Of a DNA stretch of 64,000 nucleotides, positions 4,266 to 46,442 are shown one piece after another. The position numbers were made by a program, and so were the translations under genes. How positions within the stretch are numbered: the first letter of the stretch is position 1; the number at the start of each line of letters is the position of its first letter. The DNA comes from Lentilactobacillus rapi DSM 19907 = JCM 15042 (GTDB taxonomy: Bacteria > Bacillota > Bacilli > Lactobacillales > Lactobacillaceae): positions 1-64,000 of the forward strand of contig NZ_AZEI01000084.1 in NCBI RefSeq assembly GCF_001436255.1, given 5' to 3'. The notes below the pieces were generated by a model. The model was not told the origin of the DNA, did not search any database, and worked only from the letters and a program-made list of their open reading frames with translations.

Positions 4266-6821
4266 TCACACCAACCATTCAACTGCATCAAGTGTGTAAG
4301 TCCCATCGACCACTGTGATTTCTACATGATGTTCCCCAGTGGATAAACCGGTGAACAGGCTATTTTCCGTGCGGTCTTCAGCCATTTGAGGTTGCATATT
4401 CCAAGCCAGGACTTGGTTATCGACAACTACTTTCAAATGACAGTCAGCTTTCTGTTTGCCAATCAATGAAAACCCACTCCCGGCAAAATCAAACGAAACC
4501 GTCGTCGGCTGCTGGTCGCTCCCGGTTCCATAGGAAAGGGTGCGATTCCACTTTGTGTTTCCCAGGCCGCAAACGTGATTCCAATCCCCAGTATACGAAA
4601 TGGCATCGTCAAGATCATCTAAACGGCGAGAAATCAGTGAACTTCCTGTGGCAGCCTTCTTGATGACCAGTTTCTCAATCTGGGTATGATAATAACCACA
4701 ACCGATTTTTACCCGGCCGCTAAATTTTGGATTATCCGTATCCGTAAAATTGAAAACAACTTTTCCATCAACGGCTGCCTCTAAATTGTTGCCATTTGCA
4801 GAAAACCTAATTTGATGAGTTTTCGTTAACGCTAATTGATCGACATGTGCTAATTTAACGACTCGGTCTTCTTTGACCAGCTCGCAGAGGCCGTCTGTGT
4901 ATAGTTTAAACACATATGGGGCACTCTCAAGTCTACCATTAACATCCGTTAACTCGCGCAAACCAATTCCGAAATAGTTTCCGGTTGGTGAATTCTGAAT
5001 CGTCTGGTGATCGAACTTCATAGATACATTAACCGCATAATCAGTCCATTTATCGTCACCGATCGTAAAGTTTGGTGCAAACGAGTACTCCCAGTCAAGG
5101 GCCCGTTGATCCTCAGTAATCATCTGTTGCAAGACGTTTTTGCCTTTTGACTTGACAATTTCGAATGCGCCACCTTGATCAGCGGTATATCTTGGAGTAT
5201 TACCCCGCGAACTCAGATAATTGTTAGGATACTTAGCATAAGAGAAATCATCCTCGTAAAGAATCCGGTTGTCGCCATCGATCCCAAGGGTGTAATCGTC
5301 GTGGCGGCTTTCAACTCTGTGATAAGCCACCTCATCATCGTTTTCCAAGCTCAAGGTGGTGGCGGTCACAATTGAATGGGGATTCACCACAATGTTTACC
5401 ATGCCGGCGGTTATCTCAAGCTTTTCCCGGACGCGCTTTAAATTAGTGTCATAGTCTTGATCCGAATTTTCAGGACCAATGCTTTCCCAAACTACAAGTT
5501 TCTGATTGGGAGCCAAATTGACATTTTTAATGGCAACATGATACGTTCGAGTTTGCGAACTATCATTCACCATTATAACTGAAAAGTTTTGCTTATCCGG
5601 CGCCATCAACGTCAAATAACTGGGTGCCTCCCGATTATGATCCAAGTTTTCAGTTCCACCAACGCCACTGTCACAGGCACTGGTTAGATAACGCCAGGCG
5701 CCTTCATCTGCCCAGCCGGCTTTGGCAAAGTCACTAAAATGCTTCATACACTGCAATCCAACATTGTCGACTTCGAAATGGCCAGACCATGGCCGACTAG
5801 CTGCAATCAGTTCCTTATGACTGTAGTTGACTCCGGGGTAGTAAGCGGAAACTGCTGGCTGGAAAATATAGAAGCTCCGGCGTGAGTTGACGTAACTCTT
5901 GATCAATCGGTTAGCCACATCCAGCCCGCTTTGTTTGCCGCCAATTCCGTCTCCATTTGACGCCTTAACCCGGTATTTGCCAAAGGTCATTGGGGCAATC
6001 CCTTCGCTATACCACACTTCATGCTGAAGATCATCTGCCAGCTTGGTGAACGGTTTGTTTGTCCCATCATCAGTATTATAGTGAAATCCAACTGCGGCTA
6101 CTTTATCCCGTAATTGCTTGTCGGCAATCATCATATCCCCGAAATCGCGTTCATAGTTTTGATCTGCGGCAATGATTTTAATTCGGTTATATTGGTCAAT
6201 CGGAAACTTAGCTGGAAATGCAGTGCGATCGTTTGCGATTCGATCAGCGAACCACTTGATCCACTGAACCATTGGGTGCTTGGTTTCATTTCGATCTGGA
6301 TCAACGTAATCAATCAAATACCCATATTCCTGATAGGCAGCAACAATGGTCCGCTTGTACCATTGATACATCGGCTCAAACGCGGATTCCGGCACCAACT
6401 TGTCGGGATCAGCGGATTTGACATTCACCCACAGCTTACGCAAGAATCCTGGTTCTCCCCATCTCAATATGGCCGTTTTTAAAGCCGGCTGGAGCTCTTT
6501 GGCATCGGCAGCCAGTTGAAAGCCAGCTCCTCGTTTGACATTAGCGGCATCATCGGCACTGCGCATTGTCGCCGGCTCGGTGCCAGAGGAAGTATTGCCA
6601 TCATCCCCCATTTCCAGCTTAATCATCCTCATCAAAGGATGCTTGCCGCCAAAGAGAATCTGGAGGATTTGATTATAGCTGTCCTCATGTTCCCACTTAT
6701 AATCCAACAATAATCGTGAGGAATTGTTACAGCTCAGGTAGCCAAAGCCTTTAAATGTATGACCATCCTTGTCATCAAGGTCAAGCTGGTCACCGTCAAT
6801 TACAAAGTTTGTATGATTCAT
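4266..6821 (-). CDS. GH59-like glycoside hydrolase (galactocerebrosidase-type fold), cytoplasmic
   Basis: An 851-residue protein matching the GH59 pattern known from animal GALC. MIKLEMGDDGNTSSGTEPA (66-84) mirrors GALC's VEIGGDGQTTDGTEPS, RPWSGHFEV mirrors EPWSGHYVV, and EDDFSYAKYP starts a lectin-like domain as DDFNVDYP does in GALC. Candidate catalytic residues are Glu179 (acid/base, in DRNET) and Glu273 (nucleophile, in YSEGI). A third beta-sandwich domain fills about 735-851 and looks like a carbohydrate-binding module. There is no signal peptide, so it should act on imported sugars. Known members release beta-galactose; activity here is inferred. SD AGGAG lies nine bases before the ATG, at the edge of the upstream repeat array. 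Confidence 0.75.
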   Translation of the reverse strand: MNHTNFVIDGDQLDLDDKDGHTFKGFGYLSCNNSSRLLLDYKWEHEDSYNQILQILFGGKHPLMRMIKLEMGDDGNTSSGTEPATMRSADDAANVKRGAGFQLAADAKELQPALKTAILRWGEPGFLRKLWVNVKSADPDKLVPESAFEPMYQWYKRTIVAAYQEYGYLIDYVDPDRNETKHPMVQWIKWFADRIANDRTAFPAKFPIDQYNRIKIIAADQNYERDFGDMMIADKQLRDKVAAVGFHYNTDDGTNKPFTKLADDLQHEVWYSEGIAPMTFGKYRVKASNGDGIGGKQSGLDVANRLIKSYVNSRRSFYIFQPAVSAYYPGVNYSHKELIAASRPWSGHFEVDNVGLQCMKHFSDFAKAGWADEGAWRYLTSACDSGVGGTENLDHNREAPSYLTLMAPDKQNFSVIMVNDSSQTRTYHVAIKNVNLAPNQKLVVWESIGPENSDQDYDTNLKRVREKLEITAGMVNIVVNPHSIVTATTLSLENDDEVAYHRVESRHDDYTLGIDGDNRILYEDDFSYAKYPNNYLSSRGNTPRYTADQGGAFEIVKSKGKNVLQQMITEDQRALDWEYSFAPNFTIGDDKWTDYAVNVSMKFDHQTIQNSPTGNYFGIGLRELTDVNGRLESAPYVFKLYTDGLCELVKEDRVVKLAHVDQLALTKTHQIRFSANGNNLEAAVDGKVVFNFTDTDNPKFSGRVKIGCGYYHTQIEKLVIKKAATGSSLISRRLDDLDDAISYTGDWNHVCGLGNTKWNRTLSYGTGSDQQPTTVSFDFAGSGFSLIGKQKADCHLKVVVDNQVLAWNMQPQMAEDRTENSLFTGLSTGEHHVEITVVDGTYTLDAVEWLV

Positions 6822-6834
6822 TTATATGATCTCC

Positions 6835-7338
6835 TAAAATAAAGTGAGCTGAACAAAGCGGTTAGAAGTCGGAGCGTAAGTCTCCTCAAGCGGAAATTCC
6901 GGGTTTGAGAATTTTTGCTTGAGGTGCTTACGTGCAGACTTCTGCTTTGGAAAGCTGTCCTAAAATAAAGTGAGCCGAACAAAGCGGTTAGAAGTCGGAG
7001 CGTAAGTCTCCTCAAGCGGAAATTCCGGGCTTGGGAATTTTTGCTTGAGGTGCTTACGTGCAGACTTCTGCTTTGGAAAGCTGTCCTAAAATAAAGTGAG
7101 CCGAACAAAGCGGTTAGAAGTCGGAGCGCAAGTCTCCTCAAGCGGAAATTCCGGGTTTGAGAATTTTTGCTTGAGGTGCTTACGTGCAGACTTCTGCTTT
7201 GGTAAGCTGTCCTAAAATAAAGTGAGCTGAACAAAGCGGTTAGGGATCGGAGTGTAAGTCTCCTCGAACGGAAATTCCGGTTTTTGGAATTTTTGTTCGA
7301 GGTGCTTACATGCAGATCCCTGCTTTGGCAAGCTGTCC
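6835..7338. repeat. Family B hairpin: exact tandem array of four 126-bp units
   Basis: Units start at 6835, 6961, 7087 and 7213, each 126 bp. Each unit is a long imperfect hairpin: AGCGGTTAGAAGTC near the left end pairs with GACTTCTGCTT near the right, and CCTCAAGC pairs with GCTTGAGG inside. Unit 4 differs in both arms in step (GATCC for the outer stem, CGAAC/GTTCG inside), which keeps pairing. The array sits between the beta-glucuronidase terminator and the GH59 start codon, so it forms the GH59 leader or promoter region. Because 126 is divisible by three, it leaves a meaningless open frame across all units. Confidence 0.9.
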
Positions 7339-7354
7339 TAGAATTACCAGATTC

Positions 7355-7397
7355 AAAAAGTAGTGGCCTGCACCACTCAATGGGCGACCACTGCTTC
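7355..7397 (-). terminator. Intrinsic terminator of the beta-glucuronidase gene
   Basis: On the minus strand AAGCAGTGGTCGCC pairs with the downstream GGCCACTACTT and is followed by TTTTTG. It would separate the GH2 transcript from the repeat array and the GH59 gene. Confidence 0.6.
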
Positions 7398-7406
7398 AAT
7401 TAATCA

Positions 7407-9218
7407 CTATTTGTCGGCTTTATAGTCGAGCGGCAAACTGTTCCAACGCTTCCGCAGATAAAATGCGGCCGCTTTTGGCTGGCGATCTCTGGTGAAAATC
7501 CCCTTTTTATTACCGTTTACCCGCATATTACCTTCAACGGTTTGGAAGTCTGCCAAATTCCAAGGTTGCTCCCCACGAATAAAGTCGTAGGAATCGAAAA
7601 CCCGGTTAAACATTTCCAACAATTCAATTTGATATTCTTCGCTCCACATAATCGATGGCAGTTTGTGCAGCCCCGGCTCGGTATCAGCGCCGTATTCTGA
7701 GAAGACGATTGGCTTATCAATGTCAGACTTTTGCCACTCGTCCAATTCAGCTCGCAAACCAGCTTCACCGTCAGAAATTTCATATCCCCACTTGTGGTAC
7801 CAGCCAGGATAGCGGTTGAGTAAGTAAAAGTCTGGGAATTTAAGACACTTGGACGTTTCAAACGTATCGTCTTCATTCAGGGTAAAGGTCCGCGGACGCT
7901 TTTCCGGGTCCAGATCAGCACTGTCATTGAACAATTTCGTGAAATATGGAACCGCAGAATCACTGGAGGTATCAGGTTCGTTACATAAGCTCCAGGCCAA
8001 GACACTTGGGTGATTTTTATCCCGTTTGATCATATCCTTCACTTGATCAATGTGTTTCTTGTATAAGTCATCAATCCAATCACCATCAAAGAACGACTGA
8101 TCCAGACCGCCAAGGAAGCTGGCAGCGGCCATTTTAAAGCCAACCGCCGGGACTTCATCGGTAATCAAAATTCCTTCACGATCCGCAAACTTGTAGGCTT
8201 GTTCATCATATGGATAGTGTGAACTTCTATAGGAGTTTGCGCCAATCCACTTCATCAAATTCAGATCACGGCGCTCAACGTTTAAGTCGAATGCCCGGCC
8301 AGCATAGATACTATCTTCATGACGACCGAAACCTTTTAAGTAAACTGGTTTGTGATTAACCAAAATCTGATGACCCTTAATTTCGATGGTTCGCAAACCG
8401 ATTTCATCGCTATACTCATCAACCACGGTGCCGCCCTGAACTAGTTTAATCTTAATTGTGTACAAGTAGGCATCGCGAACCTGCCAAAGGGTGGGGTTCT
8501 CAACCACCAAGTCGCCCTCTGCGCCGGTTGCAGTCGCCACAACGTGACCATCTTCATCAGCTAAGCTCACTTTGACGTCCGCATTCGAATCCGCTTCAAC
8601 ACTGTAATGAACCGTGGCCTGATCGTTACTGACTTCGTAAGTGGTCGAATAATCTTCAATATTTTCCTTAGGGATTGCGACCAAATGCACACTCCGGTTC
8701 AAACCAGAATAGTTGTAAAAATCAAAAAACGGTTTAGCCATCTTCTTGCCATTTTTCAAAGTAATCGTATCCCCGGCCGGCAGTGCATCCCGGTGGAGTT
8801 CATTATTAATTTTCACGGCAACCACATTGTCTTCACCCAGCTTAATGGCATCCGTGATATCAGCGGTAAATGGTAAAAAACCACCTTCATGAGACCGAAT
8901 TTCTTGACCATTCACAAAAATCTTTGCCCGGTGGGTCGCAGCGCCAAATCGAATACCGACCTTTTTGCCTTCAAAATAGTTTGGCACAAAGAATTTTTTC
9001 AGGTACCAAAAATCACCTGTATATTCACGAGCGTCTTTATCTGTAAAGAAATCATTGAAGCTGGCAGGAACCGGCATCTTGATTGGATCCTCCAAGCCAG
9101 TTGGCCACCCGTTTGCTTCGCCTTCAGATGCAGGGTCAAACTTGAAATCCCAGAGGCCATCCAACTTTTGATCCTCACGATATGCATTGGTAACAGGATA
9201 TAACAGATCTTTTTCCAT
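7407..9218 (-). CDS. Beta-glucuronidase, GH2 (uidA/gusA type)
   Basis: A 603-residue cytoplasmic GH2 enzyme that removes terminal beta-linked glucuronic acid. Three-domain layout: sugar-binding jelly roll (about 10-175), Ig-like domain (about 180-275) and TIM barrel (about 280-603). Catalytic acid/base Glu414 sits in WSLCNEPDT and nucleophile Glu508 in VFSEYGADT. The carboxylate-recognising N-x-K motif that marks glucuronidases is present in GNKKGIFTRDRQPK near residue 570. No signal peptide. I chose the ATG at 9218, nine bases after AAAGGA, over the upstream in-frame start. A cre-like box lies at 9256-9269. The neighbouring glycosidases suggest plant arabinogalactan-type glucuronate as substrate rather than drug glucuronides. 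Confidence 0.93.
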   Translation of the reverse strand: MEKDLLYPVTNAYREDQKLDGLWDFKFDPASEGEANGWPTGLEDPIKMPVPASFNDFFTDKDAREYTGDFWYLKKFFVPNYFEGKKVGIRFGAATHRAKIFVNGQEIRSHEGGFLPFTADITDAIKLGEDNVVAVKINNELHRDALPAGDTITLKNGKKMAKPFFDFYNYSGLNRSVHLVAIPKENIEDYSTTYEVSNDQATVHYSVEADSNADVKVSLADEDGHVVATATGAEGDLVVENPTLWQVRDAYLYTIKIKLVQGGTVVDEYSDEIGLRTIEIKGHQILVNHKPVYLKGFGRHEDSIYAGRAFDLNVERRDLNLMKWIGANSYRSSHYPYDEQAYKFADREGILITDEVPAVGFKMAAASFLGGLDQSFFDGDWIDDLYKKHIDQVKDMIKRDKNHPSVLAWSLCNEPDTSSDSAVPYFTKLFNDSADLDPEKRPRTFTLNEDDTFETSKCLKFPDFYLLNRYPGWYHKWGYEISDGEAGLRAELDEWQKSDIDKPIVFSEYGADTEPGLHKLPSIMWSEEYQIELLEMFNRVFDSYDFIRGEQPWNLADFQTVEGNMRVNGNKKGIFTRDRQPKAAAFYLRKRWNSLPLDYKADK

Positions 9219-9255
9219 TGTGATTGATCCTTTCATGATAACAAATTTAAGTTAA

Positions 9256-9856: not shown

Positions 9857-9975
9857 AAAGCTGCGCCAAACGGCTGATCCCGGCCATTTAACAAAAATGA
9901 CCAACTATTCCAAAATCAGGAATAATTGGTCATTTTCGTTAAATTCTGGGATCAAATCGCCTAATGTCCCAGTCT
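9857..9975. repeat. Family A hairpin repeat, copy 2
   Basis: Carries the same outer blocks as the copy at 4150-4262 (CGGCTGATCCCGGCCATTTA and TTCTGGGATCAAATCGCC). The inner stem is different in sequence but still pairs (AAAATGACCAA.. with ..TTGGTCATTTT), so pairing is kept while sequence changed. The rest of 9757-10132 shows no gene. Confidence 0.65.
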
Positions 9976-10132
9976 CTAATTTTTTATCAAGTTAGAAACT
10001 GCCTTTGAAAATGATTATCAATGCAGAGGATTAGAGCGGGTTCATTCATCAAAACGCGCTCGGGTTGTTACCGTTTGAGGTGACAGTCTAATTTAACTGG
10101 GATCTGCTAACCTAAGTTTCCTGACACCCAGT

Positions 10133-30073: not shown

Positions 30074-30691
30074 ATGACAAGTATGGACAGACGCGGTAAA
30101 GACGATGAATTGCTTTCACCTTCAAACTCTCTTTTAACGATTATTGATTATCAACCACTACAAGTTAACTCGATTGGCTCAATGAAACATGCCGATTTGA
30201 TTGTTAACGCCACGATGGTAGCTAAGATTGCCAAGTTGTACAAATTACCAATTGTTTTGACAACTGTCAGAGCCAATGGTAAAGCAGAAAACGATACGAT
30301 TCCCTCAATCAAAAAAGTGGTCGGCGATTTTCACCCTTCCTATGACCGAACGTCGATCAACGCTTGGGAAGATAAGGACTACAACAAAGCGGTCAAAGCC
30401 CCAAACCGCAAGAAAATCATCATTATTGCTTTATGGACAGAGGCATGCTTAACCTTCCCAACCCTTGACGCCATCAAGGAAGGCTACGAAGTTTATCCAG
30501 TTGTCGATGCAGTTGGCGGCACTTCAACGATTGCCCACGAAACAGCATTAAGAAGATTGGAACAAGCTGGTGCTCATTTAATTACAATTCCACAAATGCT
30601 TTGTGAACTGCAGCGGGATTGGAATCGGACCGAAACCGTTACTGGCTTTAATAAGTTAATGACGGAAAACGGCGGATTTGTGCCGATGTGA
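30074..30691 (+). CDS. Isochorismatase-family cysteine hydrolase (YcaC-like)
   Basis: A 205-residue cytoplasmic hydrolase. Catalytic Asp in LTIIDYQP, the Lys of the triad in the central part, and nucleophile Cys in LWTEACLTFPT. The pattern is closest to the YcaC/amidohydrolase branch. Substrate unknown. Strong SD AAGGAGG, 11 bases before the ATG. It is followed directly by a family B hairpin. Confidence 0.87.
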   Translation: MTSMDRRGKDDELLSPSNSLLTIIDYQPLQVNSIGSMKHADLIVNATMVAKIAKLYKLPIVLTTVRANGKAENDTIPSIKKVVGDFHPSYDRTSINAWEDKDYNKAVKAPNRKKIIIIALWTEACLTFPTLDAIKEGYEVYPVVDAVGGTSTIAHETALRRLEQAGAHLITIPQMLCELQRDWNRTETVTGFNKLMTENGGFVPM

Positions 30692-30695
30692 TTCA

Positions 30696-33118: not shown

Positions 33119-33358
33119 TAGGACAGCTCCTCCAGGCAATAACCTGCACATAAGCACCACAAACAAAAATCCAAAGGCGGGATTTCTGCTTGTGGAGACT
33201 TATGTTTCAGTTATTAAACGCCTGGATCCGCTCACTTCCTTAGGACAGCTCCTCCAAGCAACAATCTGCATGTAAGCACCTATCTCAAAAATCCAGAACC
33301 AGGATTTTTGAGATAGGAGACTTACACTCCGATTGTTAACCGCTTGGATCCGCTCACT
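33119..33358. repeat. Two tandem family B hairpins in the brnQ leader
   Basis: Units 33119-33240 and 33241-33358, in inverted orientation relative to the 6835 array. Each has AGGACAGCTCC, a stem around GCATGTAAGCACC / GGAGACTTACA and the closing AACCGCTTGGATCCGCTCACT block. They lie downstream of the T-box terminator and would be part of the brnQ mRNA. Confidence 0.8.
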
Positions 33359-33360
33359 CA

Positions 33361-33650
33361 AAAAAGGCGCCCCTAATTCAGAGTTAACTGAATTAAGGGC
33401 GCCTATGTGCACTTTACCACCTTATATTTGCAGTTATATCGCTACAACTGCCTTTCACGTACGGCCTCAAAGAAGCGATACGCTAACACGATAATGGGTG
33501 TCACCAATGCACGTTACTTAATTTCTTCGGTGCATCGCTCAAAAGGGATTTTCACACTTTTTGTCCTGCCTTCTCCCACCAACCAAGGCTCGCTTTCGGA
33601 TCTAAAAATGCTACTCAACTTTCTCACAGCGTTCTCTCATTAATTTAGCT
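33361..33650 (-). promoter_or_regulatory. T-box leader, isoleucine specifier (AUC), for brnQ
   Basis: The minus strand carries the T-box core AAGGTGGTAAAGTGC (rc of 33409-33424), followed by terminator GGCGCCCTTAATTCAG / CTGAATTAGGGGCGCC plus a T run (33361-33403). Upstream is a long Stem I. At the position just after GTGAAA and ten bases before the end of the conserved TTTTGAGC, the specifier triplet is ATC (33547-33549). The same spacing gives sensible codons in the other two leaders of this window. Confidence 0.85.
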
Positions 33651-43265: not shown

Positions 43266-43460
43266 AGCTTGCACCTATGCCTTCGCCACCAAAAATTCAA
43301 ATCCGGGATTTCTGGTGTTAGACTTCTCAATTACATAGATTAGGGCCGCTCCGCAAAGCAGAAACCTGCACCTAAGCCTCCTTCACCAAAAATCCAAGCC
43401 CAGGATTTCTGGCAAAGGAAACTTAGGCTCCGGTTTCTAACCGCTTTGCTCCGCTCACTA
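43266..43460. repeat. Family B hairpins: one decayed, one complete
   Basis: Complete copy at 43345-43460 (minus orientation: CCGCAAAGCAGAAACCTGCA ... GTTTCTAACCGCTTTGCTCC). The left part (43266-43330, TTGCACCTATGCC.. to ..TTAGACTTCTC) is a shorter decayed copy. The remainder of 43142-43539 shows no gene. Confidence 0.75.
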
Positions 43461-43539
43461 AACAAAAAGGCCAACGACAACGTTAATTGCCATTGACCAG
43501 TTCATTGAAGGATGAAGCTCAATATTCTTTACTTGCTAA

Positions 43540-46244: not shown

Positions 46245-46442
46245 AAAAGTAGAGTGTGACAAGACCCGGGTGGCCCCGGAGCACGTTTAAAGTAGAGTGC
46301 AGAACCAAGCGGTTAGAAACTGGAGCATAAGTCTCCTCATCTATAAATCCTGATTTTGGGGATTTATAGATGAGGTGCTTATGTGCAAGTTTCTGCTTGG
46401 TGGGGCACATTTCAAAAGCGACCTGTAATCACCCGGGCTTGA
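46245..46442. repeat. Family B hairpin nested inside a split family C element
   Basis: Outer family C parts: GACCCGGGTGGCCCCGGAGCAC at 46264-46286 and AATCACCCGGGCTTG at 46427-46441. Between them lies a full family B unit (about 46296-46408: AAGCGGTTAGAAACTGGAGC .. GCAAGTTTCTGCTTGGTGG, inner stem CATCTATAAATCC / GGATTTATAGATG). Confidence 0.65.

Follow-up and report, generated by a model that had tools for sequence, protein, structure and literature searches.

A tandem hairpin array beside a GH59 gene of Lentilactobacillus rapi as probable copies of a small, dispersed mobile element

Copies of a hairpin element number well above one hundred in the genome of L. rapi, and four of them stand in tandem before a GH59 gene in the window, the 64,000-nucleotide stretch of DNA analysed here. 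The element is polar and scattered over the genome, its structure is constrained, with compensated changes in the stem, and some orthologous sites lack it. The GH59 array probably consists of four head-to-tail copies of a small, non-autonomous, MITE/BOX-like mobile hairpin that inserts beside existing SDs and stop codons and whose units turn over fast.

The first-pass annotation placed four 126 bp hairpin units at 6835-7338, between a terminator and the GH59 start. The array is real, with an offset of three bases: four units of exactly 126 bp each lie at 6832-7335. Tandem Repeats Finder describes the region 6832-7344 as 4.1 copies with a period of 126, 93% matches and 0% indels, and a repeat search gives start-to-start spacings of 126, 126 and 126. 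The noted order also holds, with a terminator-like hairpin standing between the GH2 gene and the array, as does the coincidence of the GH59 SD with the unit edge: the edge TCCTAAAA shares bases with the SD core at 6831-6835, which reads CTCCT on the + strand. Units 1-3 share 97-98% identity with one another and 86-87% with unit 4. The features of this region are as follows.

4266-6821, - strand: GH59 gene (PF02057, E 1.5e-76), downstream of the array
6831-6835, - strand: GH59 SD core, reading AGGAG on this strand; it overlaps the edge of the unit, and the GH59 start codon is at 6821
6832-6957, + strand: hairpin unit 1 (AGTGAG from 6843), abutting the GH59 SD; repeat search, structure model, DNA fold
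6958-7083, + strand: hairpin unit 2, 97.6% identity to unit 1; repeat search, structure model, RNA fold
7084-7209, + strand: hairpin unit 3, 97.6% identity to unit 1; repeat search, structure model
7210-7335, + strand: hairpin unit 4, 87% identity to unit 1; both stem arms carry paired changes
7362-7377, - strand: terminator-like hairpin after GH2 (terminator scan; chance expectation 0.6, sd 0.8)
7407-9236, - strand: GH2 gene (PF02836, PF02837, PF00703), upstream of the array

When folded alone, units form one long imperfect hairpin on either strand, and no shuffle folded as well (RNA z-scores of -6.4 to -8.2 for units 2 and 4 and DNA z-scores of -6.3 to -8.4 for units 1 and 4, both strands in each case). 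The RNA fold of unit 2 is better on the + strand (-58.7 vs -47.5 kcal/mol). The annotated hairpin is thus borne out by folding for units 1, 2 and 4 and, for unit 3, by its score of 121 bits against a structure model. A 193-aa open reading frame running across the array (6818-7399) was discounted, since a length of 126 is divisible by 3 and units elsewhere vary in length.

Further members of the family are present in the rest of the window:

9861-9978, - strand: divergent family member, 54 bits
25243-25360, - strand: divergent family member, 42 bits
30692-30809, + strand: single copy; the gene at 30074-30691, which encodes an isochorismatase domain, has its stop codon immediately before it
33124-33361, - strand: tandem pair of copies immediately behind a terminator-like T-run
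43346-43462, - strand: single copy (structure-model match)
46291-46408, + strand: single copy of the sibling (B) type

Outside the GH59 array, the element had been described as single or double. This is correct for the window (singles at 30692, 43346 and 46291, and the pair at 33124-33361) and too narrow for the sampled stretches of the genome, where 65 arrays of one to six matches were found, partial matches included (23 of one, 20 of two, nine of three, eight of four, four of five and one of six). A BLAST search with unit 2 as the query matched 89 places in the 2.85 Mb L. rapi genome. Profile searching of 418 kb of this genome, the window included, gave 154 matches (134 full-length, the others partial); these stretches were picked around copies, and the copy density is therefore inflated.

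The family extends well beyond L. rapi. A covariance model built from 57 units matches 18 of the 24 Lentilactobacillus genomes, four of which have at least 150 scored candidates; these counts are lower bounds for the richest genomes, and they are otherwise somewhat high because the unit is nearly palindromic and some matches represent the same copy on the other strand. When the best 12 candidates per genome are considered, at least 90 of 301 Lactobacillaceae genomes and at least 20 of 40 genera are matched. Relatives occur in 82 plasmid records, including those of Lactiplantibacillus, Pediococcus and Listeria, and the phage records searched gave no match to the repeat. Rfam produced no match in the window at the gathering score; the best weak match reached 31.5 bits against a gathering score of 100, and microRNA-like weak matches were taken to be chance hits to a long hairpin.

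Many copies of sibling type B, inspected by eye in 31 cases, end in a sequence like CACTATGTAG and are often preceded by TAG. At three loci (L087, L093 and L105), a main-type unit passes after approximately 23 bases directly into a B-type unit, as though insertion of one type into the other, or recombination between them, had taken place. Two plasmids share an almost identical copy, B-like at its right end, upstream of a CopY copper repressor gene: NZ_CP018177.1 (Liquorilactobacillus) and NZ_CP041212.1 (Listeria) (L033 and L034, 3001-3116). On NZ_CP018177.1, the left end of this copy directly precedes a copper ATPase gene with its SD. The copy seems to have travelled together with the copper genes.

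Conservation of the structure was assessed in 57 of 290 eligible units: 55 of 60 drawn units and two from the GH59 array. The five drawn units that were omitted comprise four of the sibling type and one of the main type (L060:3385), the latter for no good reason. In this sample, 98.0% of cells are paired, compared with 84.1% in shuffles, and both sides have changed in 28 of the 41 stem pairs. The covariation score is 0.459 vs 0.181 in shuffles, and none of 500 shuffles scored as high, a count that is not a probability because the units are related and the alignment tested had also supplied the structure. Sliding the pairing partners destroys the covariation signal.

The non-Watson-Crick cells show a strand asymmetry. 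Pairing cells in the 134 L. rapi units comprise 4528 Watson-Crick, 495 G-T, 57 A-C and 122 other combinations on the + strand. Four of the consensus pairs are themselves G-T; outside these, G-T still outnumbers A-C (122 vs 57). More units have an excess of G-T over A-C (58) than the reverse (14), a sign test that again does not yield a probability given that the units are related. The excess is present in start-type copies (76 vs 36), for which the downstream mRNA is the other strand, is weaker in stop-type copies (29 vs 17, p 0.1) and is seen in the remaining copies as well (17 vs 4). On this pairing evidence, the folded + strand looks to be the form under selection.

These results bear on the function suggested for the array by the first-pass annotation, namely that its copy number tunes GH59. 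The hairpins could act in the GH59 5' UTR, with copy number setting translation or mRNA stability: the array directly precedes the GH59 SD, its copy number at this gene varies between species (see below), and a consensus scan of 6700-7500 detected no promoter-like site, so transcripts may read through it. However, a G-T excess on the + strand, also in start-type copies, is a poor fit with a role in GH59 mRNA, since the better structure lies on the opposite strand. Other copies stand beside unrelated genes or come after stop codons and terminator-like T-runs, and orthologues lacking any copy are common. The idea that the element is there to tune GH59 is therefore not supported, and we judge a leader-RNA regulator to be distinctly unlikely. 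The + strand preference and strong covariation would also be expected of multicopy small-RNA genes whose + strand transcripts act in trans. Against this, the same scan found no promoter-like site near the array, the stem sequence is very variable and Rfam gave no match at the gathering score; we rate small-RNA genes as very improbable.

The element has two different ends, and their surroundings differ. The left end reads AGTGAGC. In L. rapi, 31 of 63 left ends lie beside the start codon and SD of an opposite gene (mean 3.8 and maximum 10 in 500 mononucleotide shuffles), compared with three of 65 right ends (shuffle mean 2.6, maximum 10). With species pooled, a start codon with SD is found at 72 of 129 left flanks (shuffle mean 6.9, maximum 16) vs two of 106 right flanks. 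Open reading frame calls agree with this picture: among 62 left neighbours, 29 lie on the opposite strand and start no more than 20 nt away, and another 14 lie on the same strand and end within that distance. Some left ends directly follow terminator-like T-runs, and some copies directly follow stop codons. Taken together, these settings are far commoner at left ends than at right ends. The coincidence of unit edge and SD noted at GH59 is accordingly systematic. The neighbouring genes are unrelated to one another, and include those for ribosomal protein L9, PhoU, hydroxyethylthiazole kinase and argininosuccinate synthase. Polarity and insertion next to SDs are thus observed as a pattern, from which we infer direct target choice beside SDs; purifying selection against insertion into coding DNA must also contribute.

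The ends themselves carry a short motif. Of 129 first units, 40 have TCCTA at a distance of 2-9 nt ahead of AGTGAG, and none has it in a control window further out. At 161 of 169 internal junctions, TCCTA also precedes AGTGAG, where it is the right end of the preceding unit. The right end reads CTGTCCTA in 96 of the 106 last units readable by motif search. TA directly precedes AGTGAG in 30 of 129 first units. The TCCTA counts cover first units with an intact AGTGAG, with orthologous sites of different species kept separate; two loci (L075 and L114), which are pattern matches in unrelated bacteria, were left out of these and the profile counts. A strict TA or TCCTA target was rejected as too strict, as 89 of the 129 first units have no TCCTA in the expected place.

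Orthologous sites were compared between species. The GH59 leader holds four units in L. rapi, one in L. dabitei and none at the other 12 GH59-type loci, 11 of which have GH2 adjoining GH59. The GH59 proteins of L. rapi and L. dabitei are 96% identical in amino acid sequence. The match in L. dabitei (L037) spans all 851 residues and contains one in-frame TGA, which may reflect a broken gene or a misassembly of that record. In a comparison of 23 orthologous sites with L. dabitei (G011), some involving partial matches, eight have equal counts and 15 differ. Two of these sites hold non-members (L010:7207, a different hairpin in both species, and L011:1587, also a different hairpin), so that true-member sites number 21, with equal counts at eight and different counts at 13; one of them (L017:9548) is empty in L. 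dabitei. The variation in copy number foreseen between strains is therefore found, at the level of species, which is what was compared. Most occupied sites in this comparison are occupied in both species, and the empty fraction is underestimated because the presence of copies was the criterion for choosing the L. dabitei stretches. The hairpin at L010:7207-7287, also seen at L106, is an unrelated one of approximately 81 bp that occupies the same site in both species and whose stem is also diverging.

Filled and empty versions of the same site were found at several genes. Between pstB and phoU, 16 of 18 loci are empty, including that of L. dabitei, and the two filled loci (in L. rapi and in genome G004) have different junctions, suggesting independent insertions. 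The gap between rplI and dnaB is filled after rplI in three of 24 genomes. Gene names at both places were checked by Pfam (L9, DnaB, PhoU, and an ABC transporter for pstB). At an orthologous site in L. kisonensis that is empty, the sequence reads straight through the SD and an A-rich flank; the SD was therefore there first and belongs to the gene. A two-unit site of L. rapi is empty in L. dabitei. The inserts measure 130, 122 and, for two units, 255 bp, with no clear target-site duplication at the few empty sites read. In the rplI-dnaB gap of other Lentilactobacillus (L138, L142 and L144), inspection by eye shows other long hairpins right after the rplI stop codon, with a different interior and similar ends; these occur in species without the main-type element at this position.

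Units within an array are barely closer to each other than to units elsewhere: mean identity is 0.733 between adjacent units, 0.708 between non-adjacent units of the same array and 0.700 between different arrays, and the nearest relative lies outside the own array for 98 of 105 units. The GH59 array is an exception to this non-sibling rule, its units 1-3 being recent duplicates to judge by their near identity. Sister species differ in copy number and in the units present, with flanks that are mostly 91-97% identical. At 19 orthologous sites with flank identities of 88-98%, a counterpart with identity of at least 0.90 exists for eight of 44 full-length units and one of 0.80-0.90 for 15, and 21 have none at or above 0.80 (random unit pairs have a median identity of 0.73 and a 90th percentile of 0.82). 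Inheritance is plain for some arrays, such as one of three units (0.97, 0.90 and 0.95). At one single-unit site, approximately 80 nt of left flank are identical and the right flank has one mismatch, while the hairpins are 78% identical, with both arms changed.

Such a site is what whole-hairpin conversion would give, and the identity of units 1-3 indicates that local duplication happens. Both observations agree with repeats that are fixed in place and no longer mobile, multiplying by tandem duplication and being scrambled by gene conversion among dispersed copies. We consider this account unlikely as a whole, as it conflicts with the filled and empty orthologous sites, with the different pstB-phoU junctions in two lineages and with the finding that most neighbouring units are not siblings. 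Gene conversion between copies likely acts as well, and between fixed copies it could account for some of the turnover with no need for fresh insertions.

If the element moves, a moving enzyme might be recognisable by its distribution. The Y1 transposase (PF01797) was rejected as a candidate in the 24 genus genomes, given that its presence does not follow copy number: matches occur in seven, among them L. rapi, L. dabitei (fragments) and the copy-free genome G023, and are absent from the high-copy genomes G004, G014 and G003. The only match in L. rapi (C22:109952-110317, L035) belongs to an IS605-like element, next to a divergent gene that we take to be TnpB-like from its sequence, and the repeat profile has no good match in the 3.4 kb of this locus. 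An element of IS200/IS605 or REP/RAYT type, moved as single-stranded DNA by a Y1 HUH transposase, would account for the hairpin, the polarity, the strand asymmetry, the insertion next to a short motif that recurs at the end of the element and the lack of a clear target duplication, and the enzyme is present in L. rapi; its distribution and the nature of its single locus nonetheless make this extremely unlikely. The IS110 recombinase (PF01548), found in six of 24 genomes, was also rejected: it occurs in G004 and is absent from L. rapi, L. dabitei and G014. Autonomous relatives, in which a gene would separate the left half from the right, were looked for in the fetched loci and none was recognised; 27 left halves had no right half within 60 nt and, judged by distances and known arrays, none of them was recognised to frame a gene.

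The hairpins are arranged head to tail, mostly as non-siblings, keep their structure while their sequence varies, turn over fast and show a strand preference, features that also invite comparison with integrons. Gene-less cassette arrays might work by analogy with attC hairpins and be moved by a candidate tyrosine recombinase, and ordinary tyrosine recombinases do occur, as weak TIGR02249 matches, in 23 of 24 genomes. Weak matches are, however, also present in all 14 control genomes, no integron integrase exceeds the TIGR02249 cut-off in any of the 24 (it was rejected as the mover for this reason), and the units have neither genes nor a defined attI site, which leaves this reading rather improbable. 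A broader proposal is that the Lactobacillaceae possess gene-less hairpin cassettes that are recombined as a folded single strand by an enzyme outside recognised families, inserted beside SDs or stop codons, with whole hairpins exchanged at fixed addresses, an integron-like system lacking genes and integron integrase; we offer this tentatively, as an unlikely conjecture.

Returning to a small mobile hairpin as the probable explanation, each insertion would add approximately 122-130 bp, and new units would enter beside a short A-rich or TCCTA-like target. As most right ends carry TCCTA, each would resemble a landing site for the next unit, which may be how head-to-tail arrays of mostly non-sibling units arise. 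Recombination between units would then duplicate (units 1-3 of the GH59 array), delete or replace them. The folded + strand, as single-stranded DNA or as + strand RNA, would be the selected form, the likeliest reason being that the moving machinery acts on it, and any effect on GH59 expression would be a by-product. Against this reading stand the failure of the three enzyme families to fit as movers, the absence of a recognised autonomous relative in the fetched loci, the loose target, the lack of a clear target-site duplication and the predominance, in the L. dabitei comparison, of sites occupied in both species. If it is correct, some lactic acid bacteria have, at many gene ends and in many gene leaders, a hairpin that was inserted next to the ribosome-binding site without destroying it, and its number and sequence change faster than the surrounding DNA. 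Such sites would provide a natural comparison of hairpin number before orthologous genes, a possible marker for strain typing and a lead to a new DNA-moving activity.

Several described repeat families resemble the element in part. REP/BIME sequences are polar, clustered hairpin repeats of approximately 40 bp near gene ends, associated with RAYT transposases. They share with the present family the hairpins, the polarity, the clusters and the position near gene ends, and differ in size (approximately 125 bp here) and in enzyme, since several high-copy genomes have no Y1 match. Integron attC arrays are head-to-tail series of imperfect hairpins that vary in sequence and are conserved in structure. 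Such arrays are found here too, with a conjectural role as recombination sites, but without cassette genes and without an integron integrase above the cut-off.

The supermotifs of L. plantarum (LPSMs), reportedly treated by Wels et al. in 2009, are likewise multicopy, intergenic, structured elements of a lactobacillus; those that are transcribed are said to form a cruciform RNA, and a trans-acting small-RNA role was reportedly suggested. According to the available portion of the source, LPSMs are 800-1000 nt long and were not found in other Lactobacillus species (PMC5643018), whereas the hairpin family is approximately 126 nt long and occurs in at least 20 of 40 genera sampled. Like MITEs, the element is short and non-coding, with many dispersed copies; the whole unit is an imperfect palindrome, and the fetched loci revealed no recognisable autonomous partner. 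The string "Lactobac" is absent from the main text of a MITE review as far as that text was available (PMC10969869), and no description of this hairpin family was recognised in a search of open PubMed Central papers. Stem-loop repeat families such as Efa-1 of Enterococcus faecalis (163 bp, 65 members) are similar as dispersed stem-loop repeats, in a comparison by description; in the available part of the same source, the sole Lactobacillus entry is Lac-1 of L. johnsonii (231 bp), whose table letter G we read as not intergenic (PMC2267715).

BOX elements are the nearest described kind, going by the portion of the source at hand: the boxA-boxB(n)-boxC repeats of Streptococcus pneumoniae are small and dispersed, vary between strains in the number of tandem boxB modules, are predicted to form stem-loops and have reported effects on nearby genes (PMC3049150). 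Both are thus small, dispersed Gram-positive repeats with stem-loops and a variable tandem number. The present family is set apart, by description, in that no end modules like boxA or boxC were noticed, each unit being a whole hairpin with flanks that differ by site; in addition, one end lies beside SDs or stop codons, neighbouring units are mostly non-siblings and changes in the stem are compensated.
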